Positions 48,486-64,000 of a DNA stretch of 64,000 nt are shown one piece after another (position 1 is the first letter of the stretch; each line of letters begins with the position of its first letter). The position numbers and the translations under genes are program-made. Source of the DNA: Labilithrix sp. (GTDB taxonomy: Bacteria; Myxococcota_A; Polyangia; Polyangiales; Polyangiaceae); assembly GCA_019637155.1 (NCBI GenBank), contig JAHBWE010000001.1, forward strand, positions 186,001-250,000, written 5' to 3'. The notes below the pieces were generated by a model. The model searched no databases and was not told the origin of the DNA. It saw only the letters and a program-made list of their open reading frames with translations.

Positions 48486-51400
48486 ATGGAAGCTGCTCGA
48501 GGTCGCAGCCTCCCCATGGCACAGACCCCGAGCCACGTCGTTGGAATCGGAGCTTCCGCCGGAGGGCTCGAGGCGCTCGAGCGGTTCTTCGATCACGTCG
48601 AGAGCGAGACGCGGATGGCGTTCGTCGTCGTCCAGCACCTCTCGCCCGACTTCAAGAGCGTGATGGACGAGCTGTTGCGCCGTCACACCGACCTGCCGGT
48701 GCACCTCGTCGAGGAGGCGATGCCGGTCGAGGCCGGCCACGTCTATCTCATTCCGCCCAAGAAGGAGATGATCATCTCCGGCGGGAAGCTTCACCTGAGC
48801 GAGCGCGATCGGTTGCAAGAGCTGACGCTCCCGATCGACGTGTTCTTCCGTTCGCTCGCGCAGGACTGCGGACCGCGCGCGATCGCGATCGTCCTCTCCG
48901 GCGGCGGCAGCGACGGCTCGCGCGGCATCCGCGCCGTGCACGACGCCGGCGGCCTCGTCGTCGTGCAGGACACCGAGAGCGCGCAGTTCAACGGCATGCC
49001 GAAGACCGCGCGTGACGCCGGCGTCGCGCACTGGATCCTGCGGCCCGACGAGATGCCGCAGGTCATCGCCGAGCACGCCCGCTCGGGCGGCACCTCGCAG
49101 TCCCCGGCGGAGCCGACCGGCTTCGACGGCGTGTACCAGATGCTCCAGCACGAGTTCGGCATCGACTTCACGCACTACAAACCGAGCACCGTCACGCGCC
49201 GGATCGAGCGCCGCCTCAAGCTCGCGCGCGCCGCCGATCTCGACGCGTACATCGACCGGCTCCGCGCCGAGCGCGGCGAGCTCGACGTCCTCTACCGCGA
49301 CCTCCTCATCGGCGTGACGCGCTTCTTCCGCAACGAAGAGGCGTTCACGATGCTGGAGCAGAAGATCCTGCCCGAGCTCGCGAAGTCGAAGAAGAAGGGC
49401 GACCCGCTCCGCGTCTGGGTCGCCGGCTGCGCGACGGGCGAAGAGGCGTACAGCGTCGCGATCCTGCTCCACGAGCTCGCGAGCCGGAGCGACGGCCTCC
49501 AGGTGAAGCTCTTCGCCACCGACGTGCATCGCGGCTCGCTCGAGATCGCCGCGCGCGGCATCTACAACGAGGAGGCGATCGCGAACGTCTCGCCCGAGCG
49601 CCTCGAGCGCTACTTCTGGCGCCACGGCAAGGCCTACCAGATCGTGCCCGATCTGCGGCAGCTCATCGTGTTCGCGCCGCACGACGTGATCCGCGACGCG
49701 CCGTTCACGCGCGTCGACCTCGTCACCTGCCGCAACCTCCTCATCTATCTCCAGCCGCCCGCGCAGCAGAAGGTGCTCTCCCTCTTCCACTTCGCGCTCA
49801 ACCGCGGCGGCGTGCTCTTCCTCGGTCCGAGCGAGACGCTCGGCACCTCCTCCGCCGACTTCGAGACGCTCGATCGTCACTGGCACTTCTACCGGAAGTT
49901 CAGCGACGTTCGCATACCGGTGGAGACGCGCGTCCGCCCCGCGCGGCCGATCACGCTCGCGCAGACGAGCCCGCCCACCGGCCGCCTGGTCCCCGCCGCG
50001 TTGCTCGCCACCTACGACACGCTGCTCGAGGAGCTGATGCCGCCGAGCCTCCTCGTGAGCGAGCGCGGCGAGCTCGTCCACGTGTTCGGCGGCGCGAGCA
50101 AGTTCCTCGTCCTCCGCGACGGACGGCCGGGCCTCGACGTGCGCGACGTCCTCGACGACGAGCTGAAGGTCATCGTCGGCGGCGGCATCCAGCGCGCGCT
50201 GCGGTCGGACGACGCGCTCGTCTTCCGTAACGTCCGCGAGCACAAGATCACCGTGCGCAAGGTGCGCTCCGCCGCGGGCGCGGCGCACGTGCTCGTCTCC
50301 TTCGAGCCGGAGCCCGAGGACGTCCGCACCGTGACGCCGCGCGCGGAGACCGAGATCGACGTGAAGCAGATCTCGAGCGACCAGATCGGTCAGCTCGAGA
50401 ACGAGCTCAGCGTCACGAAGGAGAACCTGCAGGCCGCGATCGAGGAGCTCGAGACGAGCAACGAGGAGCTCCAGGCCGCGAACGAGGAGCTCCTCGCGTC
50501 GAACGAGGAGCTCCAGAGCACGAACGAGGAGCTCCAGAGCGTCAACGAGGAGCTCTACACCGTCAACGCCGAGTACCAGCGCAAGATCACCGAGCTGACC
50601 GAGCTCACGAACGACATGGACAACCTCCTGTCGAGCACGGACATCGGCACGATCTTCCTCGATCGCAAGCTCCGCATCCGCCGCTTCACCCCGCGCGTCG
50701 CGGACGCGTTCAACCTCCTCCCGCAGGACGTCGGCCGCTCGATCACGACCTTCGCGAGCAACATCGAGCACCCCGACCTCGCGACCGACCTCGCCCGCGT
50801 CGTCGAGACCGGGGAGCCGGTCGAGCGCGAGATCCACGACCGCGCGCAGCACGCCTTCCTCCTCCGCATCCTCCCCTACCGCGCGAAGGGCACCGTCGAC
50901 GGCGCGGTCGTCACCCTCATCGACGTCCGCTCGCTGAAGGCGGCCGAGAACGCGCTCCGCGAGGCGGTGAACCGCCGCGATCAGTTCCTCGCGATGCTCT
51001 CGCACGAGCTGCGCAACCCGCTCGGCGCGATCGTCACCGCGACGACGCTCCTCGACGAGAACGAGGACGTGCGCGAGAGCGGCGGGAAGTTCCTCTCGAT
51101 CCTCAAGCGGCAGTCGGCGCAGATGGCGCGCCTCCTCGACGACCTGCTCGAGGCGAGCCGCGTCACGCAGAACAAGATCGAGCTGAAGCGGCGCGTCCTC
51201 GACCTCCGCACCGTCGCGCGCGAGGCGGTCGACGTCGTGCGATCGGTCATGGACGCGCGCGGCATCGCGCTCGTCGCCGAGCTCCCGTCCGAGCCGGTCT
51301 GGGTCGACGGCGACGCGACGCGCCTCCAGCAGATCCAGGTCAACCTCCTCAACAACGCGGCGAAGTACACCCCGCGCGGCGGGCACGTGCGGCTCTCGCT

Positions 51401-52082
51401 CGGCGTCGAGGAGCGACGCGCGATCGTGCGCGTCGTCGACGACGGCGCCGGGATCTCCGCCGACATGCTGCCGAACGTCTTCGACCTCTTCGTCCAGTCG
51501 AAGCGCACGCTCGATCGCTCGGAGGGCGGGCTCGGGCTCGGGCTCACGCTCGTGCGCGCGCTCGTGACGATGCACGGCGGCGACGTGACGGCCGCGAGCG
51601 AAGGCGAAGGGAAGGGGACCACGATGACGGTGCGCCTGCCGCTCGCGTCGGCCCCGGCGCACTCCGAGTCGCAGGGCGCGCGTGAGCGGGGGCGGCGCCT
51701 CGAAGACGGCGCGCTCGTCATCGTCGTCGAAGACAGCCCCGACGCGTGCGAGATGATGTGCGAGCTCTTGGCGCAGGCCGGCCTCGACTGCCGCTCCGCG
51801 AACGACGGACCGAGCGGCCTCGACCTCATCGTCGCGAGCCGGCCCGCCGCCGCGATCGTCGACGTCGGTCTGCCGGGGATGGACGGCTTCGAGATCGCGC
51901 GGCGCGTGCGCGCGCGGCCGGAGCTCACCGGCATCTTCCTCGTCGCGCTCACCGGGTACGGCCGCGCGGTCGATCGGGAGCGCGCGCTGGAGAGCGGGTT
52001 CGACGAGCACATCGTGAAGCCGGTCGATCCCGAGAAGCTCGTCCGGCTCCTCGGGCGGCGCCGCGCTTTCGCCTCAAGGTGA
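48486..52082 (+). CDS. CheB-CheR-PAS-histidine kinase-receiver hybrid protein
   Basis: 1198 residues (ATG 48516 possible as start). Order: CheB-type methylesterase (about 15-200; [24 protein letters not shown]), CheR N-terminal and SAM-binding methyltransferase (about 210-480; [34 protein letters not shown]), a long heptad coiled coil with repeated NEELQ units (about 650-700), PAS (about 710-810), HisKA ([10 protein letters not shown], phosphoacceptor His near 840), HATPase ([28 protein letters not shown]) and a receiver ([25 protein letters not shown]). Such fusions couple receptor-methylation-like activities to histidine-kinase output. The genes flanking it contain no chemoreceptor. Confidence 0.92.
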
Positions 52083-52169
52083 TGGGCGGTGGGGCCGAAG
52101 GGCGGCGGCGAGGCCCGTCATTCCGCGGATCACGCCCGCGGTATGCGGCTTGCGCCCGGAGCATCGCGA

Positions 52170-53306
52170 ATGCAGTCTCCCGTCATGCAGCACCCGCGCC
52201 CGCGTCAGCTCACCGCAGATGCGCGCGCCCCGCGGATCGGTCACGTCGACGTCGTCCTTCCAGAGCACCGCTACTCGCAGCGGGAGCTCGTCCAGGTGCT
52301 CGAGCGGCGCTGGGCCGATCAGCCGCGGCTCCACGCCGTCGCGGAGAAGCTCTTCGACTCCGTCGCGGTGGAGGAGCGGCACCTCGCGCTGTCGCTCGAA
52401 GAGCACGCGAACCTCTCGGATTTCGGGGAGGCGAACGACGCCTTCATTCGCGTGGGCACCGACCTCGGCGCGAAGGCCGTCCTTCGCGCGGTCGCGCGGA
52501 GCGGGCTCGAGCTCGACGAGGTCGACGCGATCTTCTTCACGACCGTCACCGGCGTCGCCGCGCCTTCGATCGACGCGCGGCTCGTGAACCGGCTCGGGCT
52601 CCGGCGCGACGTCCGCCGCACGCCGATGTTCGGGCTCGGCTGCCTCGGCGGCGCCGCCGGCGTCGCGCGCGCGAGCGACTACCTCCGCGGGCACCCCGAT
52701 CACGTCGCGGTCCTCCTCGCGGTGGAGCTGTGCACGCTCACGTTCCAGCGTGACTTCTCGGTCGCGAACATCATCGCCTCGGGCCTCTTCGCCGACGGCG
52801 CGGCGGCGGTGGTGCTGACCGGCGCGGAGCACGCGCCGCGCTCGTCGCACGGCCTCCGCTCGCTCCGCGGCCGCGTGCGCCCGCGCGTCGTCGACACGAG
52901 GAGCGCGTTCTTCCCCGACACCGAGCGGGTCATGGGCTGGGACGTCGGGGCGACGGGGTTCAAGGTGGTGCTCTCCGCCGACGTCCCCGCGATCGTCCGC
53001 GAGCACGTCCCGCGCGAGGTCGATGCCTTCCTCGCGGCGCATGGATTGACCCGCGGCGACGTGAAACATTGGGTCTGTCATCCCGGCGGGCCGAAGGTGA
53101 TCGCGGCGATCGAGGAGTCGCTCGGCCTCCCGCGCGACGCGCTCGACGTCACGCGGCGCTCGCTCGCGACGGTCGGCAACCTCTCGAGCGCGTCCGTCCT
53201 CCACGTCCTCGGCGAGACGCAGGAGCGCGCGATGCCGGGCGACCTCGGCGTGATGATGGCGATGGGCCCCGGCTTCTGCGCGGAGATGCTCCTCTTGGCC
53301 TGGTGA
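52170..53306 (+). CDS. Type III polyketide synthase (chalcone synthase-like)
   Basis: ATG 52170 is preferred because GGAG sits 8 nt upstream; ATGs at 52143 and 52185 are in frame. 378 residues, normal size. The Cys-His-Asn triad is present: Cys158 in GLGCLGGAAG, His304 in VCHPGGPKV, Asn337 in GNLSSASV; C-terminal GPGFCAEMLLL is the family's GFGPG-like loop. It condenses an acyl-CoA starter with malonyl-CoA to alkyl-resorcinols or pyrones. First gene of a three-gene operon whose order equals srsA-srsB-srsC in Streptomyces phenolic-lipid clusters, so an alkylresorcinol product is the leading inference. Confidence 0.9.
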   Translation: MQSPVMQHPRPRQLTADARAPRIGHVDVVLPEHRYSQRELVQVLERRWADQPRLHAVAEKLFDSVAVEERHLALSLEEHANLSDFGEANDAFIRVGTDLGAKAVLRAVARSGLELDEVDAIFFTTVTGVAAPSIDARLVNRLGLRRDVRRTPMFGLGCLGGAAGVARASDYLRGHPDHVAVLLAVELCTLTFQRDFSVANIIASGLFADGAAAVVLTGAEHAPRSSHGLRSLRGRVRPRVVDTRSAFFPDTERVMGWDVGATGFKVVLSADVPAIVREHVPREVDAFLAAHGLTRGDVKHWVCHPGGPKVIAAIEESLGLPRDALDVTRRSLATVGNLSSASVLHVLGETQERAMPGDLGVMMAMGPGFCAEMLLLAW

Positions 53307-53321
53307 GGGCCTGGTGATCCG

Positions 53322-53846
53322 ATGACGTCCCTCGCCGTCTACGAAGGACTGCTCGTCGCCGTCGTCGGCGAACGCCTCGTCGAGCTGGTGCTCTCGAAGC
53401 GCCACGCCGAAGCGATCCTCGCGCGCGGCGGCGTCGAGCGCGGTCAGGGGCACTACCCGTTCATGGTCGCGCTCCACACCGCGTTCCTCGCGGGCTGCGT
53501 CCTCGAGCCATGGCTCTTCGCGCGGCCGTTCGTCCCTGCGCTCGGCGTCCCGATGCTCGTGCTCGCGCTCGCGGCGCAGGGGATCCGCTGGTGGGCGATC
53601 GCGACCCTCGGCGTGCACTGGAACACGCGCGTGATCGTGCTCCCCGGCGCGCGGCGCATCGGCGGCGGGCCGTATCGCTTCTTCGCGCATCCGAACTACG
53701 TCGCGGTCGTGCTCGAGGGGATCGCGCTGCCGCTCGTGCACATGGCGTGGGTCACCGCCGCGGTCTTCACGCTCCTCAACGCGTGGCTCCTCACCGTGCG
53801 CGTCCGCGCCGAGAACGCCGCCCTCGCGACGATGAGGGCGGCGTGA
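53322..53846 (+). CDS. Isoprenylcysteine methyltransferase-like membrane O-methyltransferase
   Basis: 174 residues, about four membrane helices. ICMT-type C-terminal motif: GVHWNTRVIVLPG, GPYRFFAHPNYVAVVLEGIALPL. N-terminal GERLVELVLSKRHAE matches the BpsB/YpbQ-like proteins that methylate type III PKS products in Bacillus; SrsB-type enzymes occupy the same position in Streptomyces. It probably methylates the hydroxyl of the polyketide at the membrane using SAM. It starts 15 nt after the PKS stop and its own stop overlaps the flavoprotein start (GTGA). Confidence 0.85.
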   Translation: MTSLAVYEGLLVAVVGERLVELVLSKRHAEAILARGGVERGQGHYPFMVALHTAFLAGCVLEPWLFARPFVPALGVPMLVLALAAQGIRWWAIATLGVHWNTRVIVLPGARRIGGGPYRFFAHPNYVAVVLEGIALPLVHMAWVTAAVFTLLNAWLLTVRVRAENAALATMRAA

Positions 53847-55024
53847 GCGACGACTTCGACTTCGACGTCGTCGTCGCCGGCGGCGGACCGGCGGGGCTCG
53901 CCGCCGCGATCCACGCCGCGCACGCCGGCCTCCGCGTGCTCGTCGTCGATCCGCACGGCCCCGCGTCGATCGACAAGGCGTGTGGCGAAGGGATCATGCC
54001 GGGCGGCGTCGACGCGCTCCGGCGCCTGGGCGTGCGCCCGGAGGGGCGGCCATTCGTCGGCATTCGCTACGCGCTCGCCGCCGATCCGGCGTGCGAGGCG
54101 TTCGGGAACTTCCCGATCGGGAGCGGCCTCGGCGTGCGGCGCACGGCGCTCTCGGGCGCGCTCCTCGATCGCGCGGCGATGGCGGGCGTGCGTTTCCGCG
54201 AGGGGCGCGTCGCGGGCTTCACGCAGGAGGGGGACGAGGTCACGCTCGCGGACGGGACGCGGGCGCGCTGGCTGATCGCGGCGGACGGCCTGCGCTCTCC
54301 GATCCGTCGCGCGCTGAAGCTCTCGGCGCCGCCGCGACACGCGCCGCGGTTCGGGCTTCGCCGTCACTACGCGATGAGCCCGTGGACGATGCACGTCGAG
54401 GTGCACCTCGCGGCGGACGCGGAGGCGTACGTCACGCCGGTCGCGGACGATCTCGTCGGCGTCGCGATCCTGTTCGGCGGCGCGATCGGGGGCGCCGATC
54501 CCTCGCTCGAGCATGGAGCCGGGCGCGGCGTCGAGCTCCCGCCCGAGCACGGGGCCGGGGCGCGCTACGACGCGCTCTTGCGCCGCTTCCCCGCGCTCTC
54601 GGCGCGGCTCGCGGGGGCGGAGGCCGCGTCGGCGGTGCGCGGCGCGGGTCCGTTCGAGCAGCGTGTCTCGCGGCGCGTCGCCGGCAACGTGCTCCTCGTC
54701 GGCGACGCGGCGGGCTACCTCGATCCGCTCACGGGCGAGGGCGTCGCGCTCGGCCTCGCGACGGCGGAGGCGGCGGTCGACGCGATACGCGCCGACGATC
54801 CCGCGAGCTACGACGCGCGCTACGACGCGATCACGCATCGCTACTTCACGCTCACGTCCGCGCTCCTCGCCGTGGTCCGCCGTCCCGCGCTGCATCGCCC
54901 GCTCATCCGCGCCGCGCGCGCGTGGCCGAGCATGTTCGACCGCGTGCTCGGGGTCCTCGCGCATCTCCGCGCCGACGGGGAGACGCCGGTGGGTCCGCTC
55001 TTGCCCGAGGCGCCGTACGTCTAA
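53843..55024 (+). CDS. FAD-dependent oxidoreductase / monooxygenase
   Basis: GTG 53843 overlaps the methyltransferase stop. 393 residues; N-terminal FAD-binding Rossmann motif VVAGGGPAGLAAAIHAAHAG, KACGEGIMPGGVDALRRLG (GR2-family characteristic), DG box LIAADGLRSPIRR, and the ribityl-binding GDAAGYLDPLTGEGVALGLATA. It resembles geranylgeranyl-reductase/UbiH-like flavoproteins and SrsC, which hydroxylates alkylresorcinols to hydroquinones. With the two preceding genes it would complete a phenolic-lipid quinone pathway. Ends in a 10-bp tandem repeat including its stop. Confidence 0.87.
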   Translation: MSDDFDFDVVVAGGGPAGLAAAIHAAHAGLRVLVVDPHGPASIDKACGEGIMPGGVDALRRLGVRPEGRPFVGIRYALAADPACEAFGNFPIGSGLGVRRTALSGALLDRAAMAGVRFREGRVAGFTQEGDEVTLADGTRARWLIAADGLRSPIRRALKLSAPPRHAPRFGLRRHYAMSPWTMHVEVHLAADAEAYVTPVADDLVGVAILFGGAIGGADPSLEHGAGRGVELPPEHGAGARYDALLRRFPALSARLAGAEAASAVRGAGPFEQRVSRRVAGNVLLVGDAAGYLDPLTGEGVALGLATAEAAVDAIRADDPASYDARYDAITHRYFTLTSALLAVVRRPALHRPLIRAARAWPSMFDRVLGVLAHLRADGETPVGPLLPEAPYV

Positions 55025-55097: not shown

Positions 55098-56153
55098 CTA
55101 GCGGTAGCGTGCCCAGTCGATGGCGAGCTTGCGCATCTTGCCGCGGAGGGTGTGCGGGTTGAGGCCGAGGAGCGCGGCCGCGCCGGCGGGGCCTTCGATG
55201 CGTCCGCGCGTGCGCTCGAGCGCCTTGCCGATGTGCGCCCGCATCGCGTCCGCCAGCGTGGGGAAGGCGTCGGCGCGCGGGGCGACCGAGACGACGGAGG
55301 ACTCGATCGCGGGCAGCGGATCGCCGAGCGCGCCCGCGAGGTCGAGGCGGAGGCCGCCGCCGAGGATGGCGGCGCGCTCGACGACGGCGGCGAGCTCGCG
55401 CACGTTGCCGGGCCACGTGTAGCGCTGGAGCGCCGCGATCTCGGCCTCGGTCGGGACGAGCGGCACGCCGGTGAGGCGGAGGCCGGAGCGCCGCGCGAAA
55501 TGAGCGGCGAGGGCAGGGATGTCGTACGGCCGATCGCGGAGCGGCGGGATCCGCACCGCGAAGACGCCGATGCGGTACCAGAGGTCCTCGCGGAAGGCGC
55601 CCGCCGCGCACATCGCGCGGAGATCGCGATGGGTGGCGGTGACGATGCGCACCGAGACCTCGAGCGTCTTGCTCCCGCCGACGCGCTGGAGCGTGCCCTC
55701 CTGGAGCACGCGGAGGAGGCGCACCTGCGCCGCGAGCGGGAGCTCCGCGATCTCGTCGAGGAAGAGCGTGCCGCCGTCGGCGCGCTCGAACCAGCCCTGG
55801 CGCGAGCTCGTCGCGCCGGTGAAGCTGCCGCGCTCGTGGCCGAAGAGCTCCGAGTCGACGAGGTCCTTCGGGATCGCGCCGCAGTTGACGCGGATCATCG
55901 GCCCGCGCGCGCGCCGCGATCGAACGTGGAGGACGCGGGCGATGAGCTCCTTCCCCGATCCGGTCTCCCCTTCGAGGAGGACGGGCGCCTCCGTCGGCGC
56001 GACCTGCTCGATGCGCTCGATGACGGAGCGGAGCCCGGTCGCCGCTCCTACGACGGGATCGTCATCAAACTGAACGGCTCCGCCGTCGATCTCGACGGGC
56101 GCGGCCAGCGCCGGTGCTGGCCGCGCCCCCGCCAGATGCGGTCGAAACGGCAT
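55098..56153 (-). CDS. Sigma-54-dependent activator without sensor domain
   Basis: Start 56153 (MPFRPHL) is preferred; ATG 56201 in frame would extend it over the -24/-12 promoter of the divergent gene, and those codons lack GC3 bias. 351 residues: a short N-terminal tail, then the AAA+ ATPase from about 33: Walker A EGETGSGKE (61-69), GSFTGA loop (109-114; the usual form is GAFTGA), Walker B GGTLFLDEI, R-finger region with REDLWYRIGVF, and WPGNVRELAAVVERA. A Fis-type HTH is at the C-terminus (LADAMRAHIGKALERTRGR, then AAALLGLNPHTLRGKMRKL). With no receiver, PAS or GAF domain it resembles PspF-like enhancer-binding proteins controlled by a partner. It diverges from the uptake operon. Confidence 0.88.
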   Translation of the reverse strand: MPFRPHLAGARPAPALAAPVEIDGGAVQFDDDPVVGAATGLRSVIERIEQVAPTEAPVLLEGETGSGKELIARVLHVRSRRARGPMIRVNCGAIPKDLVDSELFGHERGSFTGATSSRQGWFERADGGTLFLDEIAELPLAAQVRLLRVLQEGTLQRVGGSKTLEVSVRIVTATHRDLRAMCAAGAFREDLWYRIGVFAVRIPPLRDRPYDIPALAAHFARRSGLRLTGVPLVPTEAEIAALQRYTWPGNVRELAAVVERAAILGGGLRLDLAGALGDPLPAIESSVVSVAPRADAFPTLADAMRAHIGKALERTRGRIEGPAGAAALLGLNPHTLRGKMRKLAIDWARYR

Positions 56154-56173
56154 TTCTGCGGGGATCCTCGAGC

Positions 56174-56189
56174 TGGCACTACGCGTGCT
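56174..56189 (+). promoter_or_regulatory. Sigma-54 (-24/-12) promoter of the uptake operon
   Basis: TGGCAC at 56174-56179 and TGCT at 56186-56189, with exactly 10 nt between the invariant GG and GC, as in the consensus TGGCACG-N4-TTGCW. It points toward the gene at 56202, predicting a transcript start near 56200, and lies beside a sigma-54 activator gene. Confidence 0.75.
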
Positions 56190-56201
56190 TACGGCGGACA
56201 T

Positions 56202-57392
56202 ATGTTCAATATAACGGACGCCGGTCTTGGAAACAAGACGGTGGCCCTCCTCTTTGGCGCCGGGGTCCTCCTCGTCGCCTCGCCTGCGCGGGCGGACGGC
56301 AACTGCAAGGACAAGCCGGCGCCGATCTACGGCATCGGCGGGAGCGCGACGAAGCCGCTCTTCGGGAAGGTCGGCGCCGCGCTCGCGGCGGCGTCGCCGC
56401 GGACGCTCGTCTACCAAGCGCCCGGCGCGTGCGTCGGCATCAACGGCTTGCTCGGCGACACGAAGCTGACGGGGACGGCGAGCTACTGGGACGCCGACGG
56501 CAAGGAGCAGACCTGCACGCTCGACGTGCCGACGACGATCGACTTCGTCAGCATGGGCAACAGCGCGACGTCGTGTCCCGGCGTCGCCGCGCTGCCGGCC
56601 GACGTCGGCGACTTCGAGGGCCCCGTCAACGCGTACACGCTGATCGCGCCGGTGGCGTCGAGCCAGACGTCGATCAGCCGCGAGGCGGCGTACTTCGCGT
56701 TCGGGTTCGGCCAGCAGGGGCAGGCCGCGCCGTGGGTGGACGAGTCGCAGATCTACCGGCGCGATCCCAACGCCGCGGTGCAGCTCTTCCTCTCGATCGC
56801 GACCGGCGTCCCGGTCGAGAAGTTCAAGGGCATCGACACGAAGACGAACAGCGGCACCGTCACCGCGGTCGCGCAGTCGCCCAAGCCGGAGGCGGCGATC
56901 GGCGTCGTCTCGGGCGAGGTCGCGGACGCGAACCGGGCGACGGTGAAGATCCTCGCTTACCAGCACGCGGGGCAGCGCTGCGGGTTCTGGCCCGACTCGA
57001 GCCCGACCGCGTTCGACAAGAAGAGCGTCCGCAACGGCCAGTACTGGATGTGGGCGCCGCTCCACTTCTTCGCCAAAGTGGACGCGCAGAAGAAGATCGT
57101 GAACGCCGCGGCGGCGGACTTCATCGGCCTCTTTACGGGCGCGACGGCGCCGCCGGCGAACGTCGACATGCTCTCGATCGAGACGAAGTCCGGCACCGTC
57201 CCGCGCTGCGCGATGAACGTCTGGCGCGACGGCGACCTCGGCGACATCCGCCGCGAGGCCCCAGAAAAACCGTGCGGCTGCGCCTTCGAGAACATCGCGA
57301 CGGGCACGACCACGTGCACCGCGTGCACCACCGACGCCCAGTGCGGCACGAGCACCCCAACCTGCCGCTTCGGCTTCTGCGAGGCCCGATGA
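56202..57392 (+). CDS. Secreted binding-protein-like protein (PstS-like) with Cys-rich end
   Basis: Up to 396 residues. ATG 56202 would be nearly leaderless relative to the predicted -12 promoter; GTG 56241 is an alternative start. Signal segment TVALLFGAGVLLVASPARADG. The mature protein reads YGIGGSATKPLFGKVGAAL, TLVYQAPGACVGINGLLG, TGTASYWDADGKEQTCTL: this Gly/Ser loop and 'Y-x-x-x-G-S/A-C' opening recalls phosphate-binding (PstS-like) periplasmic proteins common in myxobacteria. The C-terminal 40 residues carry CGCAF, CTAC, CGTSTPTC, CRFGFC. Stop overlaps the next ATG (ATGA). Binding of phosphate or another anion is inference. Confidence 0.65.
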   Translation: MFNITDAGLGNKTVALLFGAGVLLVASPARADGNCKDKPAPIYGIGGSATKPLFGKVGAALAAASPRTLVYQAPGACVGINGLLGDTKLTGTASYWDADGKEQTCTLDVPTTIDFVSMGNSATSCPGVAALPADVGDFEGPVNAYTLIAPVASSQTSISREAAYFAFGFGQQGQAAPWVDESQIYRRDPNAAVQLFLSIATGVPVEKFKGIDTKTNSGTVTAVAQSPKPEAAIGVVSGEVADANRATVKILAYQHAGQRCGFWPDSSPTAFDKKSVRNGQYWMWAPLHFFAKVDAQKKIVNAAAADFIGLFTGATAPPANVDMLSIETKSGTVPRCAMNVWRDGDLGDIRREAPEKPCGCAFENIATGTTTCTACTTDAQCGTSTPTCRFGFCEAR

Positions 57393-57811
57393 GCACGCGC
57401 GATCGTCTCACCGCAGGCTCAGCCGCGGCCGCGGGCTCGGCGGGTCCGACGGGCGTGGGCAGCCGCGCGGCGGGCGCGGGTAGGCGCGTGGCCGGTCGAT
57501 GGCGCGATGTGCTCGTCCTCGTGCTGTCGTTCGTGCCGGTTGGGTTTGCTTGCTCGAACGCGCAGGAGTCGGCGCCGTCGCGTACGGTCGGGGTCGCCGG
57601 CACCTCGACGAGCGGCGGCGCGGCGGACGGCGGCGACGTCGACGCCGACGTCGATCCTTCGTGCCTCGGCGCGGAGGGCTGCTTCACGTGCGAGCCGACG
57701 CGCACGATCGATCTCCTCAACGCGTGCACCGACGGCCAATGCGCGCCGTTCGACAACGCGGCGCGGCTCCCGCTCTTCGTTCCCGGTCAGGCGCTCCCGC
57801 CCGTCCTGTGA
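57389..57811 (+). CDS. Small Cys-containing lipoprotein, function unknown
   Basis: 140 residues. ATG overlaps the preceding stop (ATGA). An Ala/Gly/Arg-rich N-terminal extension (about 1-35) precedes a lipoprotein signal (DVLVLVLSFVPVGFAC, Cys near 54). The body has the Asp/Gly linker ADGGDVDADVD and then GCFTCEPTRTI, NACTDGQCAPF. The long N-terminal extension is unusual; GTG or TTG inside it might be the real start. Co-transcribed with the binding-protein-like gene and the porin. Confidence 0.6.
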   Translation: MSTRDRLTAGSAAAAGSAGPTGVGSRAAGAGRRVAGRWRDVLVLVLSFVPVGFACSNAQESAPSRTVGVAGTSTSGGAADGGDVDADVDPSCLGAEGCFTCEPTRTIDLLNACTDGQCAPFDNAARLPLFVPGQALPPVL

Positions 57812-57814
57812 TCC

Positions 57815-59227
57815 GTGGGCCTCGTCCTTCCCATCGTCCTCCTCCTCCAGGCTATTTCTGGCCGGCCTGCGGAGGATGACCTCGAGGTGCCGGCGGTCCT
57901 GACTCAGCCGCCGGCCCTCGAGCCCCAGGTGACGCCGGTGCAGGCTCCACAAGCTCCTGTGGAGCCCGCACCGGCGCCGCCGCCTTCTCCTCCTCCTTCG
58001 CCCCCGCCCCCCGACGTCGTCACCGGCCGCCCGGAGCCGTCGCTCACGGGCGGGCTGACGGGACCGCTCGGGCTCGTCATATCGGGATATGTCCAAGGCC
58101 AATACCAAACGAGCGCGGCGTCGGAGGACCAGCTCCAGCAAGGCGGATTGCCTCTCAACGAGGACCGCTTCCTCGTCCGCCGCGCGCGTATTCGCGTCGA
58201 TCGAGCGTGGAAATGGGCCGCGACGGCGATCGAGATCGACGGCAATACGACCCGCGGCCCGACGTTCGGCCTCCGCCGCGCCGAGGTCGCCTTCGTATGG
58301 CGCAATCCGGAGGCGAACGCGCCGCCGTACTTGAGAGTCACGGCCGGGTTGTCCGAAATCCCATTTGGTTACGAGATCACCGACTCGCCACGAGCGCGCT
58401 GGTTCATGGAGCGATCCGCCGGCGGCCTCGCGCTGTTCCCCGGGGAGCCCGACCTCGGCGTCCGCGTCTCCGGCGGGGTCGGGTTCTTTCGCTACTCCGT
58501 CGCGGCGCAGAACGGCGAGCCGCTCGACGATCGACCCGGCCGCGCGAACCGCGAGCTCAACGCGGCGAAGGACCTCGTCGGTCGCGTCGGCGTCGATACG
58601 GCGGTGGGCTCGCGCCTGCGCGTGAGCGGCGGCGCGTCGTTCCTCACCGGCGAAGGGTTCCACGCCGGCAACGACGCGACGAAGAACGCGACGCTCTGGC
58701 GCGACCTCAACGAGAACGGCCAGATCGACAACGGCGAGATCACGGCCGTGCCCGCCACCGCCGCGACGCCGTCGCTGACCTTCTCGCGCTGGGCCTTCGG
58801 CGTCGACCTCCAGCTCGCGTTCGAGACGCGCTTCGGCAAGTCGCGCCTCTACGGCGAGGTCTTCGTCGCGCAGAACGCGGATCGTGGCCTCTTCGGCGCC
58901 GATCCGATCGCGACCGGCACCGACGCGCGCGAGCTCGGCTGGTACGTCGCGTTCGTGCAGGACGTCACGCGCTGGGGCGTCGTCGGCTTCCGCGCCGACT
59001 ACTACGACCCGAACGCCGACTTCTTCGACGAGCGCGGCGGGAAGCTCATCCCCGCGAGCGCAGCGATCCGCACGTACTCGCCGCTCGTCGGCCTCGTGCT
59101 GCCCGATCGCCTCCGGCTCCTCGTGCAGTACGACGCGATCGTCGACAACCTCGCGCGCGACGCGCAGGGCGTCCCGACCGATCTGAAGAACGACCAGCTC
59201 ACGCTCCGCCTGCAAGGAGAGCTGTGA
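57815..59227 (+). CDS. Outer-membrane porin-like beta-barrel protein (OprO/OprP-like)
   Basis: GTG 57815, 3 nt after the lipoprotein stop. 470 residues: signal GLVLPIVLLLQAISG, a Pro-rich periplasmic or linker region (about 35-75), then alternating strands with LVISGYVQGQYQ, NEDRFLVRRARIRVDR, WKWAATAIEIDGN, FGLRRAEVAFVWRNP, YLRVTAGLSEIPFGYEITDS and a C-terminal strand ending LTLRLQGEL. The 'F-x-I-R-R-A-R-x-x' start and 'G-x-x-x-x-P-F-G-x-E' motif are typical of phosphate-selective porin O/P-type proteins. It likely lets the substrate of the binding-protein-like product or another anion cross the outer membrane. The Pro-rich segment is unusual for porins. Confidence 0.78.
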   Translation: MGLVLPIVLLLQAISGRPAEDDLEVPAVLTQPPALEPQVTPVQAPQAPVEPAPAPPPSPPPSPPPPDVVTGRPEPSLTGGLTGPLGLVISGYVQGQYQTSAASEDQLQQGGLPLNEDRFLVRRARIRVDRAWKWAATAIEIDGNTTRGPTFGLRRAEVAFVWRNPEANAPPYLRVTAGLSEIPFGYEITDSPRARWFMERSAGGLALFPGEPDLGVRVSGGVGFFRYSVAAQNGEPLDDRPGRANRELNAAKDLVGRVGVDTAVGSRLRVSGGASFLTGEGFHAGNDATKNATLWRDLNENGQIDNGEITAVPATAATPSLTFSRWAFGVDLQLAFETRFGKSRLYGEVFVAQNADRGLFGADPIATGTDARELGWYVAFVQDVTRWGVVGFRADYYDPNADFFDERGGKLIPASAAIRTYSPLVGLVLPDRLRLLVQYDAIVDNLARDAQGVPTDLKNDQLTLRLQGEL

Positions 59228-60096
59228 TGCGGCGGTGGGCCCTCGCGCTCCTGATCGCGTGCTCCGGCGTCGAGGCGCGGAGCGGGCTCGACGAGCCGCT
59301 CCAGGTCCGCGGCGGGAGCTTCAAGTCGGGCGCGCTGCCGGGCGGGGCCGAGCGGCCGGAGGTGACCGCGATCGAGTCGGCGAGCCTCGTCCTCCGTCCC
59401 GGGCAGACGGAGAAGGCCGTGCTCGGGCGGACCTCCACCGACGCCGCCGCGGTCGCCGTCCGTTTTGCCGATTTGGGGACCGGCTATTGGGTAATTCCGG
59501 TCGGCGGGCCGGACCCCTCCAACGGCGGAGAGCTCGAGTGGGCGGTCTCGCTCTCGTTCGGACCGGACGTCCCGCCGGGGCCGCACGAGCTGCTGGTGGT
59601 CGCGATCGACGCGGCGGGGAACGCGGGGGCCCAGCGCGGACTGCCGACTTGTGTCGCCTCGGCGATACCGGACAACGACGTCGCTTGCGATCCGAATGCC
59701 AAGTTGCCGGCGGCGGTCGTCTCCTTGACGTGGGACACGCCGGCGGATCTGGACCTCGTCGTCGTGGCTCCGGACGGCACGCTGCTCTCCGCCAAGCGGC
59801 CGCGGAACGGCGATCCTGACGCCGGCGCCGGCACGATCACGCGCGACTCGAACGCCGCCTGCCTCCTGGATCACGTTCACCGTGAAGACCTGGTGTTCCA
59901 GGTCCCTCCGCCGGCGGGCTCGTACCTCGTCTACGCGAGCCTCTTCGACGCGTGCGGTCGCGCGCCGGTGCACTTCCGCGTGTCGGTCAAGCAGGGGCCG
60001 GACGTGACCCTCACCCGTGAAGGGACGTTGCTCGGCGTCGACGCCAACGGGGGCGCGACGCTCGGGACGTTCGTGACGGAGCTGTCGTTCGAATGA
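59227..60096 (+). CDS. Secreted lipoprotein with YfaP/DUF2135-like domain
   Basis: 289 residues; ATG overlaps the porin stop (TGATG). Signal RRWALALLIAC, lipobox LIAC. An N-terminal beta domain (about 50-150) with LELRPGQTEK-like SLVLRPGQTEKAVLG and PPGPHELLVVAIDAAGN. The C-terminal half has LTWDTPADLDLVVVAPDGT, ITRDSNAACLLD, REDLVFQVPPPAGSYLVYASLFDACG: the D-L-D-L-V-V-x-P-D-G motif followed by a PxGxYxVxxxxF strand is the YfaP/DUF2135 signature. Two Cys pairs. It may bind calcium or carbohydrate; its place between porin and TonB genes suggests a role in the same uptake system. Confidence 0.68.
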   Translation: MRRWALALLIACSGVEARSGLDEPLQVRGGSFKSGALPGGAERPEVTAIESASLVLRPGQTEKAVLGRTSTDAAAVAVRFADLGTGYWVIPVGGPDPSNGGELEWAVSLSFGPDVPPGPHELLVVAIDAAGNAGAQRGLPTCVASAIPDNDVACDPNAKLPAAVVSLTWDTPADLDLVVVAPDGTLLSAKRPRNGDPDAGAGTITRDSNAACLLDHVHREDLVFQVPPPAGSYLVYASLFDACGRAPVHFRVSVKQGPDVTLTREGTLLGVDANGGATLGTFVTELSFE

Positions 60097-60108: not shown

Positions 60109-60756
60109 ATGATCGTTGACCGTCTCCTCAAGGTCGCCCTCGCCGGAAGCACGTGGGTGCTCTGGCTCCTCCTCGCGCTCTCGGTCGTGTCGTTCGCCGC
60201 GATGCTCGAGCGCTGGCTCTTCTTCCGCCGCCATCGCGACGACGTGGGCTCGCTCCGCGCGCGGGTCGGCAAGGCGCTCGCGCGCGGCGACGTCGACGGC
60301 GCGGAGGCGGCGCTCTCGAAGAGCCCGAGCATCGAGGCGCGGGTGGTGCGCTCGGCGTTCGCGTTCCGCCGCGGCGGCCCGGAGGCGATCGCGGACGCGG
60401 TCGACAGCGAGCTCGGCGTGGCGCGGAAGGAGCTCGAGCGCGGCACCAACCTGCTCGGCACGCTCGGCAACAACGCGCCGTTCATCGGCCTCTTCGGCAC
60501 CGTCCTCGGCGTCATCGAGGCGTTCCATCAGCTCGCGGGCGGCGCGGCGAAGGCCGCGATGGGCAACGTCATGAGCGGCATCGCGGAGGCGCTCGTCGCG
60601 ACCGGCGTCGGCCTCTTCGTCGCGCTCCCCGCCGTCGTCGCGTACAACGTGGCGCAGAAGCGGATCTCCGAGATCGAGAGCGACGCGATCTCGCTCTCCA
60701 AGCTCGTCACCGCCGCGCTGCGGGCGCCCTCCGCCGGCGCCGCGGAGGCCGAATAA
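60109..60756 (+). CDS. exbB: ExbB/TolQ-family proton channel protein
   Basis: 215 residues, ATG 60109 with AAGGAG upstream. Three membrane helices: GSTWVLWLLLALSVVSFAAMLERW, NLLGTLGNNAPFIGLFGTVLGVIEAF, and GIAEALVATGVGLFVALPAVVAYN. The GLFGTVxG and AL-x-T-x-x-G-L-x-x-A-(I/L)PA motifs identify ExbB/TolQ/MotA proteins. With ExbD it uses the proton gradient to energise TonB. Its stop overlaps exbD (TAATG). Confidence 0.93.
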   Translation: MIVDRLLKVALAGSTWVLWLLLALSVVSFAAMLERWLFFRRHRDDVGSLRARVGKALARGDVDGAEAALSKSPSIEARVVRSAFAFRRGGPEAIADAVDSELGVARKELERGTNLLGTLGNNAPFIGLFGTVLGVIEAFHQLAGGAAKAAMGNVMSGIAEALVATGVGLFVALPAVVAYNVAQKRISEIESDAISLSKLVTAALRAPSAGAAEAE

Positions 60757-61163
60757 TGGCCGGCACCGCGGCGGGCCGGCGCGGGCCCATCGTCGGCATC
60801 AACGTGACGCCGATGGTCGACGTCGTCCTCGTCCTCCTCGTCATCATGATGGTGTCGGCGACGTACATCGTCGCGCAGAGCCTCAAAGTGGAATTGCCGA
60901 AGACGGCGTCCTCCGACGAGGCCGCGCCGCAGACGGCGGCGGTCACGCTGACGAAGGACGGAAAGACGCTCTACAACGAAGAAGAGATCGCGGAGCCGGC
61001 GCTGATCGAGAAGCTGCGCGCCGCCCACGGCGCGAACGCGGACCTGAGCCTCGTCGTGAGCGCCGACCAGGAGGTCCATCACGGCGCGGTCGTCCACGTG
61101 ATCGACATCGCGAAGGTCGAAGGTATTTCGAAGTTCGCGATCCACGTCGAGCGCTCGAAGTAG
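60756..61163 (+). CDS. exbD: ExbD/TolR-family protein
   Basis: 135 residues; start overlaps exbB stop (TAATG). Cytoplasmic N-terminus with NVTPMVDVVLVLLVIMMVSATYI: the conserved Asp in the membrane helix (Asp near 22) is the proton-binding residue. A periplasmic TolR fold follows with VTLTKDGKTLYNEEEI and LSLVVSADQEVHHGAVVHVID. Together with ExbB it forms the TonB motor. Confidence 0.93.
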   Translation: MAGTAAGRRGPIVGINVTPMVDVVLVLLVIMMVSATYIVAQSLKVELPKTASSDEAAPQTAAVTLTKDGKTLYNEEEIAEPALIEKLRAAHGANADLSLVVSADQEVHHGAVVHVIDIAKVEGISKFAIHVERSK

Positions 61164-61165
61164 CC

Positions 61166-61870
61166 GTGCTCACCCGCGCCGGGATCCTCTACCTCGCGAG
61201 CTTCGCCGCCCACGGCGCGCTCGCGGTCGGCATCGTGTCGCTCAAGGGCGAGCGGCGCTACGAGGACGTCGCGATCTCGATCGTGGAGCCGGCGAAGAAG
61301 GAGGCCGCGCCGCCGCCGGAGACGCCTCCGCCGCCCGCCCCGCCGCCGGAAGATGCGCCGGCGCCGAGGAAGGCGAAGCTTGCCGCGCGCGCCGCGGAGC
61401 CTGCCGCTCCTTTGCCCGAAGCCGCGCCCGCGACGGCGGGCGACGCGGTCCCGGACTTCGGGCTCTCGCTCGGCGGCGGCGGCGCGGGCCCCGGCCTCGC
61501 GGTGCGCGCCGCTGCTCCCGCCCCCGTCGCGGCTTCGGCTTCGGCCCCGCCGGTCCACCGCGTCCTCGCGGCGGCGCCGGCGCCGGCCGAGACGTGCGAC
61601 GAAGCCCCGAAAAAACCGAAGCCGATCGCGATCGCGCAGCCGGCCTACACCGCCGAGGCGCGCGCCGCGAACGTCGCGGGGAAGGTGCGCGTCGAGATCA
61701 CGGTCGACGCGACGGGCAAGGTGACGAGCGTGCGCGTCCTCGAGGGGCTCGGGTACGGCCTCGACGAGGCGGCGTTGGCGGCGGCGCGGGCGGCGACGTT
61801 CGAGCCGGGGACGAAGTGCGGGAAGCCGGCGACCGCCACGTTCACCGTCGCGATGCGGTTCACGCTCTGA
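61166..61870 (+). CDS. tonB: TonB-family energy transducer
   Basis: GTG 61166, 2 nt after exbD. 234 residues: an N-terminal signal-anchor helix (YLASFAAHGALAVGIVSL), a Pro/Ala-rich periplasmic spacer (about 45-140) and a C-terminal TonB fold (about 155-234): AQPAYTAEARAANVAGKVRVEITVDATGKVTSVRVLEGLGYGLDEAALAAARAATFEPG. The 'YPxxAR' of TonB is YTAEAR here. It would drive the TonB-dependent receptor encoded next. Confidence 0.92.
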   Translation: MLTRAGILYLASFAAHGALAVGIVSLKGERRYEDVAISIVEPAKKEAAPPPETPPPPAPPPEDAPAPRKAKLAARAAEPAAPLPEAAPATAGDAVPDFGLSLGGGGAGPGLAVRAAAPAPVAASASAPPVHRVLAAAPAPAETCDEAPKKPKPIAIAQPAYTAEARAANVAGKVRVEITVDATGKVTSVRVLEGLGYGLDEAALAAARAATFEPGTKCGKPATATFTVAMRFTL

Positions 61871-61877
61871 GCGATCG

Positions 61878-64000
61878 ATGCGCCGTCGCTCCGCCACGCT
61901 CGCGGTCGCGCTCGCGCTCCTCGCGCCGGCGACCGCGTCCGCGCAGAAGCTGACGAAGCCCCCGCGCCTCGTGCAGCTCGCCGAGGCGGCGAACCCGGAG
62001 AAGCGCGCGGCGGAGGTGGTGCTCCGGATCACGATCGGCGCGACGGGCCGGGTCGAGGCGGCGGAGGTGGTGGAGTCGGCGGGTCCCGTCCTCGACGCGG
62101 CGGCGCTCGCGGCGATCCGCGACTCCGTCTTCGAGCCCGCCGAGATCGACGGCAAACCGTCGCCGATCAAGTTGCTATTTCGTTATGCCTTCACGATCGC
62201 GGAGGAGGCGCCGACGACCGCGACCTTCGAGGGGATCGTCCGCGATCGCGCCACGCGTAAACCCATTGGCGGCGTCGAAATCGAGGTCGGAGGCCTCTCC
62301 GCTTCGACCGACGATAGTGGCCATTTCTCGCTCACCGGCGTCGCGCCGGGCAAACAAGCCATTACGCTCTCGGGCGCGGGGTTGACCGCGCTCCGGACGG
62401 AGGAGACCTTCGAGGCGGGGAAGAAGCTCGAGGCGGTCTACGACGTCGCGGCGCCGGCGGCGGCCGGCGACGCGGCGGGGGACGGGGACGACCTCGAGAT
62501 CGTCGTCACCGCGCCGGCGCTCGAGAAGCACGTCGTCGCGACGGAGGTGACGGCGGAGGAGGGGCGCCGCCTCCCCGGCACGCAGGGTGACGTGCTGAAG
62601 GTGATCGAGAGCATGCCCGGCGTCGCGCGCGCGCAGGTCGGCTCGGGCGCGCTCGTGGTGTGGGGCGCGGCGCCGGAGGACACGCGCGTCTACGTCGACG
62701 GCGTGCGCGTCCCGCGCCTCTACCACGGCGGCGGCCTGCGCTCCGTCGTCGCGACCGATCTCGTCGAGTCGGTCGAGCTCGCGCCGGGGGGCTACGGCGC
62801 CGCGTTCGGCCGCGGCCTCGGCGGCCTCGTGACGGTGCGGACGCGGCGCCTCACCGAGCCGCGCCTCCACGCGAGCGCGGGCGTCGACCTCCTCGACGCG
62901 TCCGCCGCGCTGCGCGCCCCGATCGGCGAGCGGCTCCACGTCGCGATCGCGGCGCGCCGGAGCCACCTCGACGCGGTGCTGAACCCGATCACCGGCGGCG
63001 ACGCGAAGGACTTCTTCCCGATCCCCCGCTACGAGGACGCGCAGGCGCGCGTCGCCTACGAGGTCGCGAAGGACGAGCGGGTCGAGGTCACGTGGCTCCA
63101 CTCGAGCGACGACGTCGAGCGCGTCGCGACGAGCACCGATCCGCTCCTCCGCAAGCTCGATCGCCGCGTGCTCGCGTTCGAGCGCGTCTACGCGCGCTGG
63201 GAGCGCGGCGGCGCGAGCGTGGTCCCGTGGTTCGGCCTCGACCGCGCGCGGCGCGAGGACCGCTTCGGCGAGGTGCCCGCCTTCTCGCGCCAGGACACGA
63301 CGCTCTACGGCCTCCGCGCCTCCTATCGCGGATCGATCGCGAAAGACGTCTCCGTCGCGGTGGGCCTCGACGCCGAGGTCGACGACGCCCGCCTGACGCG
63401 CAGCGGCTCGATCACCACCCCGCCGCGCGAGGGCGATCTCCGCGTCTTCGGTCAGGCGCCGGCCGATCGCGTGAACGCCGATCGATGGAAGGTCGTGACC
63501 GCGGGGATCGCGCCCTATTCGGAGTTCGATATTGGCCTGTTCGGCGGGCGCGTCCACGTCGCGCCGGGCCTCCGCTTCGATCCCTACTTCGTGAGCGTGA
63601 GCCGCAAGACCCCGGCGGTGGGCGACACGCCGGGGCTCGGCGCGTTTCGCCAGGGCGCCGCGCTCGAGCCCCGGCTCGCGGTGCGATGGCAAGCGGAGCC
63701 GCGCCTCCTGCTCCGCGCGGCGTATGGCCGATATCACCAGCTCCCCGCGGCGGAGGACCTCTCGTCGGTGTTCGGCAATCCGGCGTTGCCGGCGGCGGGA
63801 GGCGACCATTTCGTCCTCGGCGGAGCCTTCAAGGTATTTCCCAAAACGGCGCTCGAGACGACCTCGTTCCTCACGCTGTCGTCCGATCTCTCGATGCGCA
63901 ACCCCGCCGCCGCGCCGCTCCTCGCGGAGGCGCTCCTCCCGGTCGGCGACGGCCGCGCGTACGGCGTGCAGACGCTGCTGCGCCAAGAGCTCTCGCGCCG
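61878..64000 (+). CDS. TonB-dependent receptor with N-terminal TonB-C-like domain (3' end outside window)
   Basis: ATG 61878, 7 nt after tonB; still open at the window edge (707 codons seen). Signal RRRSATLAVALALLAPATASAQ. Residues about 30-110 repeat the TonB C-terminal fold (AAEVVLRITIGATGRVEAAEVVES, LDAAALAAIRDSVFEPAEIDG). Residues about 115-195 are a carboxypeptidase-regulatory-like domain (FEGIVRDRATRKPIGGVEIEVGG, DDSGHFSLTGVAPGKQAITL). The plug follows from about 210 (VVTAPAL, LPGTQGDVLKVIESMPGVA, YVDGVRVPRLYHGGGLRSVV, GYGAAFGRGLGG) and then the beta-barrel strands. A TonB-C domain on the receptor itself is unusual. Substrate unknown; energised by the neighbouring ExbBD-TonB. Confidence 0.88.
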   Translation, partial: MRRRSATLAVALALLAPATASAQKLTKPPRLVQLAEAANPEKRAAEVVLRITIGATGRVEAAEVVESAGPVLDAAALAAIRDSVFEPAEIDGKPSPIKLLFRYAFTIAEEAPTTATFEGIVRDRATRKPIGGVEIEVGGLSASTDDSGHFSLTGVAPGKQAITLSGAGLTALRTEETFEAGKKLEAVYDVAAPAAAGDAAGDGDDLEIVVTAPALEKHVVATEVTAEEGRRLPGTQGDVLKVIESMPGVARAQVGSGALVVWGAAPEDTRVYVDGVRVPRLYHGGGLRSVVATDLVESVELAPGGYGAAFGRGLGGLVTVRTRRLTEPRLHASAGVDLLDASAALRAPIGERLHVAIAARRSHLDAVLNPITGGDAKDFFPIPRYEDAQARVAYEVAKDERVEVTWLHSSDDVERVATSTDPLLRKLDRRVLAFERVYARWERGGASVVPWFGLDRARREDRFGEVPAFSRQDTTLYGLRASYRGSIAKDVSVAVGLDAEVDDARLTRSGSITTPPREGDLRVFGQAPADRVNADRWKVVTAGIAPYSEFDIGLFGGRVHVAPGLRFDPYFVSVSRKTPAVGDTPGLGAFRQGAALEPRLAVRWQAEPRLLLRAAYGRYHQLPAAEDLSSVFGNPALPAAGGDHFVLGGAFKVFPKTALETTSFLTLSSDLSMRNPAAAPLLAEALLPVGDGRAYGVQTLLRQELSR

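Follow-up and report, generated by a model that had tools for sequence, protein, structure and literature searches.

Which polymerase and which signal turn on a TonB-powered uptake operon, and for what substrate, is the question raised by a 64-kb stretch of DNA (the window, always taken at its full length), part of the 10.1-Mb genome of a soil myxobacterium. In the window a -24/-12 motif faces genes for a binding protein (PBP), a porin and a TonB system, and a gene for a sigma-54 activator (EBP) diverges from them. The whole model proposed here, an EBP-driven sigma-54 promoter serving an uptake operon under sulfur limitation, is considered likely. Confidence that sigma-54 and the divergent EBP drive the operon is high for an analysis of sequence alone; sigma-54 dependence is inferred, without expression data.

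Orthologous operons were gathered by profile search from a comparison set of same-genus Labilithrix relatives and other Myxococcota, and were then compared by tblastn. Genome-wide statistics come from pattern searches.

Operon layout, promoter motif and divergent activator

The operon genes and the elements immediately upstream are the following.

55098..56201, minus strand: sensor-less sigma-54 activator (EBP), 367 aa, with AAA+ domain, GSFTGA loop, Walker A and Fis-type HTH
56174..56189, plus strand: predicted sigma-54 (-24/-12) promoter TGGCACTACGCGTGCT, predicted +1 at 56200
56202..57392, plus strand: PBP, exported binding protein of predicted PstS fold, 396 aa (AlphaFold2 model, fold match)
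57389..57811, plus strand: lipo1, small lipoprotein-like protein, in the same place in most operons
57815..59227, plus strand: outer-membrane porin, predicted beta barrel matching porins
59218..60096, plus strand: lipo2, lipoprotein, position conserved
60109..60756, plus strand: ExbB (PF01618, E=5e-31)
60750..61163, plus strand: ExbD (PF02472, E=4e-27)
61166..61870, plus strand: TonB (PF03544, E=1e-18)
61878..64000 and past the window, plus strand: TonB-dependent receptor with N-terminal TonB_C domain (profile match, contig continuation)

The order PBP-lipo1-porin-lipo2-ExbB-ExbD-TonB-receptor is widely kept; gene order and the sequences themselves are shown. Gaps between the operon genes range from -10 to +12 nt, so that a single transcript is likely. 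Beyond the window end the receptor gene continues and is followed by a ninth gene, encoding a lipoprotein (lipo3) and overlapping the receptor's end. Residues 38-106 of the receptor, at its N-terminus, form a TonB C-terminal domain, and a separate TonB is encoded just upstream; the same N-terminal arrangement appears to be shared by MxcH, the myxochelin receptor model. Elsewhere in the window, chalcone-synthase-like, isoprenylcysteine-methyltransferase-like and FAD oxidoreductase genes follow one another at 52089-55024, possibly forming a small polyketide cluster, and 48486-52082 encodes a 1198-aa fusion resembling CheB-CheR-PAS-histidine kinase-receiver.

The motif TGGCAC-N6-TGCT at 56174-56189 agrees with the sigma-54 consensus (TGGCAC-N5-TTGCW) at 10 of 11 positions, with GG and GC 10 bp apart; the sole mismatch is a G where TTGC has its first T. 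No other site in the window fits with a single mismatch and, when the window was scanned by a matrix based on the published consensus, the motif was the top-scoring of 127,968 positions (13.9 bits, the next reaching 11.6). Under a third-order Markov model a score this high has a frequency of about 2.7e-6 per position. The exact string TGGCACN6TGCT is present at 27 sites genome-wide, some inside genes, and the bare motif is not enriched; the weight of the assignment therefore rests on position and conservation. The genome contains one copy of rpoN (E=8e-65) and encodes about 80 sigma-54 activators.

Profile search of the EBP detected an AAA+ domain (PF00158, E=1.6e-67), a lid and a Fis-type HTH (HTH_8 over cut-off), and no sensor domain; its GAFTGA-type loop reads GSFTGA. 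Orthologs were found in 18 other genomes, most of them 61-75% identical. EBP relatives in G039, G048 and G067 are longer at the N-terminus, by about 150-190 residues or more; in G039 and G048 no Pfam domain was found in this extension. A start at 56153 was considered first and replaced by 56201 on promoter geometry. The divergent start codons of EBP and PBP abut (CATATG) and, if the activator starts at 56201, the sigma-54 promoter is inferred to lie inside the activator gene.

A preliminary description of the locus had claimed that TGGCAC and TGCT, at the exact -24/-12 spacing, face the gene at 56202 and that a sigma-54 enhancer-binding protein without sensor domain diverges from it; both claims held. 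Its prediction of a sigma-54-controlled uptake operon reaching at least the TonB receptor is well supported by comparative evidence, expression being inferred, and the operon extends further, to the ninth gene. Points beyond that description are the abutting starts, the predicted PBP start at +3, the promoter placed by inference within the EBP gene and a probable sulfur class of substrate.

Co-occurrence of the motif with a linked activator

All nine operons with an adjoining activator, found in Polyangiaceae and Labilitrichaceae genomes, keep the motif before PBP. The activator gene is divergent in the window, L063, L065, L066, L072 and L111, and lies downstream of the receptor in L071, L073 and L074; the linked activators are 68-75% identical. 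The nine motifs score from 8.8 to 16.7 bits, those of L073 and L074 having two consensus mismatches and that of L111 ending in TGTA instead of TGCA. Among operons without a linked activator, about one in 16 has the motif (Fisher p=5e-6, relatedness not corrected); in this lone case, L107 (G067), the genome has an EBP on another contig. On the PBP tree the motif trait requires 4 changes by parsimony, at least two of them on well-supported branches, and none of 500 shuffles was as low. L064, nested in the window's clade, is devoid of both motif and linked EBP. G048 is a misfit: an EBP ortholog is present, yet the PBP operon is without the motif.

These data, in which conservation and co-occurrence are shown, bear on the possibility that the motif arose by chance and that the operon is read from an ordinary promoter. 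The 27 exact strings mentioned above, some of them within genes, speak for it; against it, in ten genomes whose flanks have diverged the motif keeps its place, its strand and nearly its spacing, and it tracks the EBP. This explanation is rated very unlikely.

A scan of the upstream EBP gene for inverted repeats, proposed in the preliminary description, was run and gave, post hoc, one candidate site.

56083..56098, no strand assigned: candidate activator site (enhancer) CCGTCGATCTCGACGG, centre at about -109, inside the EBP gene, binding inferred

The dyad CCGTC-N6-GACGG and its converse came from enumerating inverted repeats, and were found upstream of more promoters than in shuffles. Allowing one mismatch at most, either form is present in 8 of 10 sigma-54 operon promoters vs 2 of 23 controls, a post hoc count including some promoters that are close relatives. 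In 7 of the 10 it is centred between -75 and -121, at -109 in the window; L111 and L107, both among these ten, have no such dyad. An activator site of a sigma-54 promoter would be expected about 80-150 bp upstream, and the post hoc dyad is a candidate for it.

In the mechanism proposed, sigma-54 polymerase would transcribe PBP-lipo1-porin-lipo2-exbB-exbD-tonB-TBDR-lipo3 from 56174-56189, and the divergent EBP would activate it via the CCGTC-N6-GACGG dyad about 109 bp upstream, within its own gene. Since the EBP is without a sensor domain, its amount should be the signal, as with SfnR. Protein-site pairings, the signal and all expression steps are inferred only.

Palindrome, sulfur context and substrate

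The region of the abutting starts contains three further elements.

56208..56236, minus strand: predicted sigma-70-type EBP promoter, with -35 TTGTTT at 56236-56231, 17 bp, -10 TATATT at 56213-56208 and 6 nt to ATG
56204..56219, no strand assigned: putative palindromic operator GTTCAATATAACGGAC, over the EBP -10 and first PBP codons
56224..56239, no strand assigned: second inverted repeat GTCTTGGAAACAAGAC, over the EBP -35, with a low palindrome-matrix score, assignment tentative

The geometry of the EBP promoter is near constant: in 8 of 9 genes a -35 of TTGTTT or a variant and a -10 of TATANT or a variant are 17 bp apart, with 6 nt between the -10 and the start codon, the ninth (L071) having 7 nt and a poor -35. 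A second activator copy (L187, G005:C194) has identical promoter geometry and is located close to genes for a lipoprotein and for a second receptor whose N-terminus is TonB_C-like. The 16-bp palindrome GTCCGTTATAACGGAC spans the PBP start, and the location of the EBP -10 under it would fit a repressor site and a leaderless EBP mRNA. The PBP N-terminal sequences MSVITN and MSTITD were rejected as protein conservation, operator DNA being the better explanation.

With up to 3 mismatches, 14 palindrome sites were found in the own genome vs 4 for a reversed control, several of them inside genes. The palindrome precedes rhodanese-MoeB in 7 Labilithrix genomes, and is also found before metK, mercaptopyruvate sulfurtransferase, the sulfate-binding gene of G084-G088 and cysD of G001. 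The GTCCGTTATAACGGAC sites listed for G000 (L132-L137: C24:40377, C8:26485, C8:26503, C1:385394, C1:385415) precede rhodanese-MoeB and metK, and one pair adjoins an activator gene and an unknown lipoprotein. In G001 the EBP gene is followed by cysD and then cysN, in G084-G088 it closes a sulfate ABC operon, and in L106 and L114 sulfate transport genes, read from sequence only, neighbour the PBP operon. The palindrome sites are read, by inference, as a sulfur regulon whose regulator is not identified. On gene context and palindrome, a sulfur compound is inferred as the likely substrate class.

Rrf2 was suggested as the palindrome's protein by gene order in G075 and G048, and was given up: the genome's only Rrf2 gene lies elsewhere, in an unrelated context. 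No palindrome scoring above 9 was found in the EBP/Rrf2 stretch of G048. The methionine regulators SahR/SamR (PMC4239095) were also considered, without sequence comparison. The failure to find the palindrome regulator, the single Rrf2 gene of the genome having no such link, counts against the model.

A different assignment of the proteins is possible, in which the sigma-54 promoter is served by another of the roughly 80 activators, or the EBP binds the palindrome and not the dyad. It is favoured by the location of the palindrome between the divergent genes, and before some EBP genes. Against it, the palindrome precedes metK and rhodanese genes and is found in operons without an EBP ortholog, for which reason it was rejected as the EBP site in the main reading; moreover, linked EBP and motif co-occur, and the dyad tracks sigma-54 operons. 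The alternative is regarded as unlikely. In the preferred model, the EBP promoter would be overlapped by the palindrome also found before sulfur genes, and an unidentified sulfur-status regulator would keep this promoter and the first PBP codons closed when sulfur is plentiful. Upon sulfur limitation the EBP would be made, and outer-membrane uptake of a sulfur compound would be turned on; the imported substrate is perhaps sulfate or another tetrahedral oxyanion.

Search of PBP revealed no Pfam or NCBIfam match (no Pfam match even at E<=10), and its profile no match among PDB sequences. The AlphaFold2 model (pLDDT 90) has PstS as best fold match (Z 25.9 over 251 residues, rmsd 2.4), followed by ModA and sulfate-binding proteins, so far as predicted folds are concerned a shown result. 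Phosphate binders outscore sulfate binders (Z 25.9 vs 14.9); the modelled fold suggests a tetrahedral oxyanion, and does not separate phosphate from sulfate. The porin model (pLDDT 69) has a generic barrel fold, and deriving specificity from it was given up. Porin_O_P was detected in one ortholog only, below the gathering cut-off (14.8 vs 20.9 bits, E=0.018).

These results leave room for a rival reading, in which the operon imports phosphate or another non-sulfur oxyanion and the nearby sulfur genes are incidental. The closest fold, PstS, with the Z scores just given, and the weak Porin_O_P similarity support it. Against it, the operons examined were seen to have no pst or pho gene next to them, and sulfate ABC genes, cysDN and the palindrome tie the operon to sulfur in several lineages. 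It is held to be improbable, the substrate itself remaining an inference.

Start-codon spacing and comparison with known systems

The PBP start lies 12 nt after the motif in 8 of 9 orthologs, and 16 nt after it in L065. If +1 is 12 nt from the -12 C, the start is predicted at +3, behind a 2-nt leader, the RNA 5' end being inferred; in the proposed mechanism both divergent mRNAs would be leaderless or nearly so. In the own genome, an RTG at PBP-like spacing was found at 8 sites, all of which open frames of plausible genes, mostly lipoproteins.

Spacing was evaluated genus-wide by searching for the motif followed by 0-30 nt and ATG, and was computed over 150 matches from G000 and G001-G004, the fifth genome being covered in part. 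The ATG lies at 11-15 nt in 64 of them, corresponding to 12.8 per spacing vs 3.3 elsewhere (p=1e-14), and none has it at 8-10 nt. The peak, about four-fold over other spacings, is mostly found before lipoprotein genes. Each of the 24 peak ATGs fetched from the own genome begins a reading frame, in most cases for an exported protein, and 17 of them have a lipobox according to a simple pattern. Examples of peak genes (L198-L221) are mostly lipoproteins, while two resemble protein kinases. Shine-Dalgarno pairing is stronger where the ATG lies further from the motif. Three further genera of the family show a weak peak (p=0.015, 0.045 and 0.13). These spacing statistics are shown; RNA 5' ends are inferred.

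A point against the model is that PBP starts with GTG in half of the cases: this codon serves leaderless mRNAs poorly in E. coli, and the leaderless mRNAs of S. meliloti do not use it (PMC3616915). The motif could be real and translation start downstream, for example at GTG 56241, leaving a normal leader. Such a possibility is supported by the unusual character of leaderless GTG starts and by a weak SD-like GGCGG before the PBP ATG in the window. Against it, L071, L073 and L074 each offer a single in-frame start between motif and signal peptide, exactly 12 nt past the motif; the genus-wide peak, with its void at 8-10 nt, and the 24 frames opened in the own genome also oppose it. A downstream start is judged unlikely.

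A bolder reading of the leaderless starts is favoured by a narrow margin, as one joint judgement: sigma-54 polymerase would make a large class of mRNAs that are leaderless or have 1-5-nt leaders in Labilithrix and, more weakly, in its family, and this class would mostly encode exported lipoproteins, the TonB operon being one member. In this reading the short leaders would follow from a -12 element set at a fixed distance from the start codon. No pertinent report linking sigma-54 with leaderless mRNA, or leaderless mRNA with Myxococcus, was found in the open-access literature searched, most subscription papers being outside it.

The proposed model connects TonB-driven uptake across the outer membrane with sigma-54 and, judging from gene context, with sulfur supply, through an activator, a candidate site and an operator, each of which can be mutated. 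The fixed distance from -24/-12 element to start suggests that sigma-54 transcripts may be widely leaderless in these bacteria; if so, sigma-54 targets would be predictable from spacing alone.

Several known systems share parts of this arrangement. PspF and other sensor-less EBPs likewise consist of AAA+ and HTH without a regulatory domain; unlike PspF, the EBP has no PspA-like partner in sight, and some of its relatives have N-terminal extensions. PBP shares its predicted fold with PstS phosphate-binding proteins, but differs from them in having no profile match, no pst ABC partners seen, a cysteine-rich C-terminal tail and the company of TonB and porin. The predicted EBP promoter resembles those of leaderless Deinococcus-Thermus genes, with the -10 box beside the start codon (PMC12340547), whereas the PBP class would use a sigma-54 -24/-12 element.

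The preliminary description also held that sigma-54 control is not a known regulatory logic for TonB systems, which is too strong. A 2025 survey predicted sigma-54 promoters before TonB genes of Flavobacteriia and called them unconfirmed (PMC12316311); that evidence is a statistical enrichment, whereas here one conserved operon is accompanied by an activator, a candidate site and a physiological link. A second precedent is SfnR of Pseudomonas, which works with sigma-54 to activate genes of sulfur starvation (Endoh 2003, 2005, cited in PMC8234197). SfnR is not known to have a sensor domain. By analogy, it offers the closest known logic: a sigma-54 activator of sulfur-scavenging genes placed under a sulfur regulator, CysB. 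The EBP context shows the linkage to sulfur assimilation that is a criterion of the SfnR group. The two systems differ in that SfnR targets organosulfur monooxygenase genes, while a TonB, porin and binding-protein operon is found here, with a palindromic regulator site whose protein is not identified and divergent genes with abutting starts.
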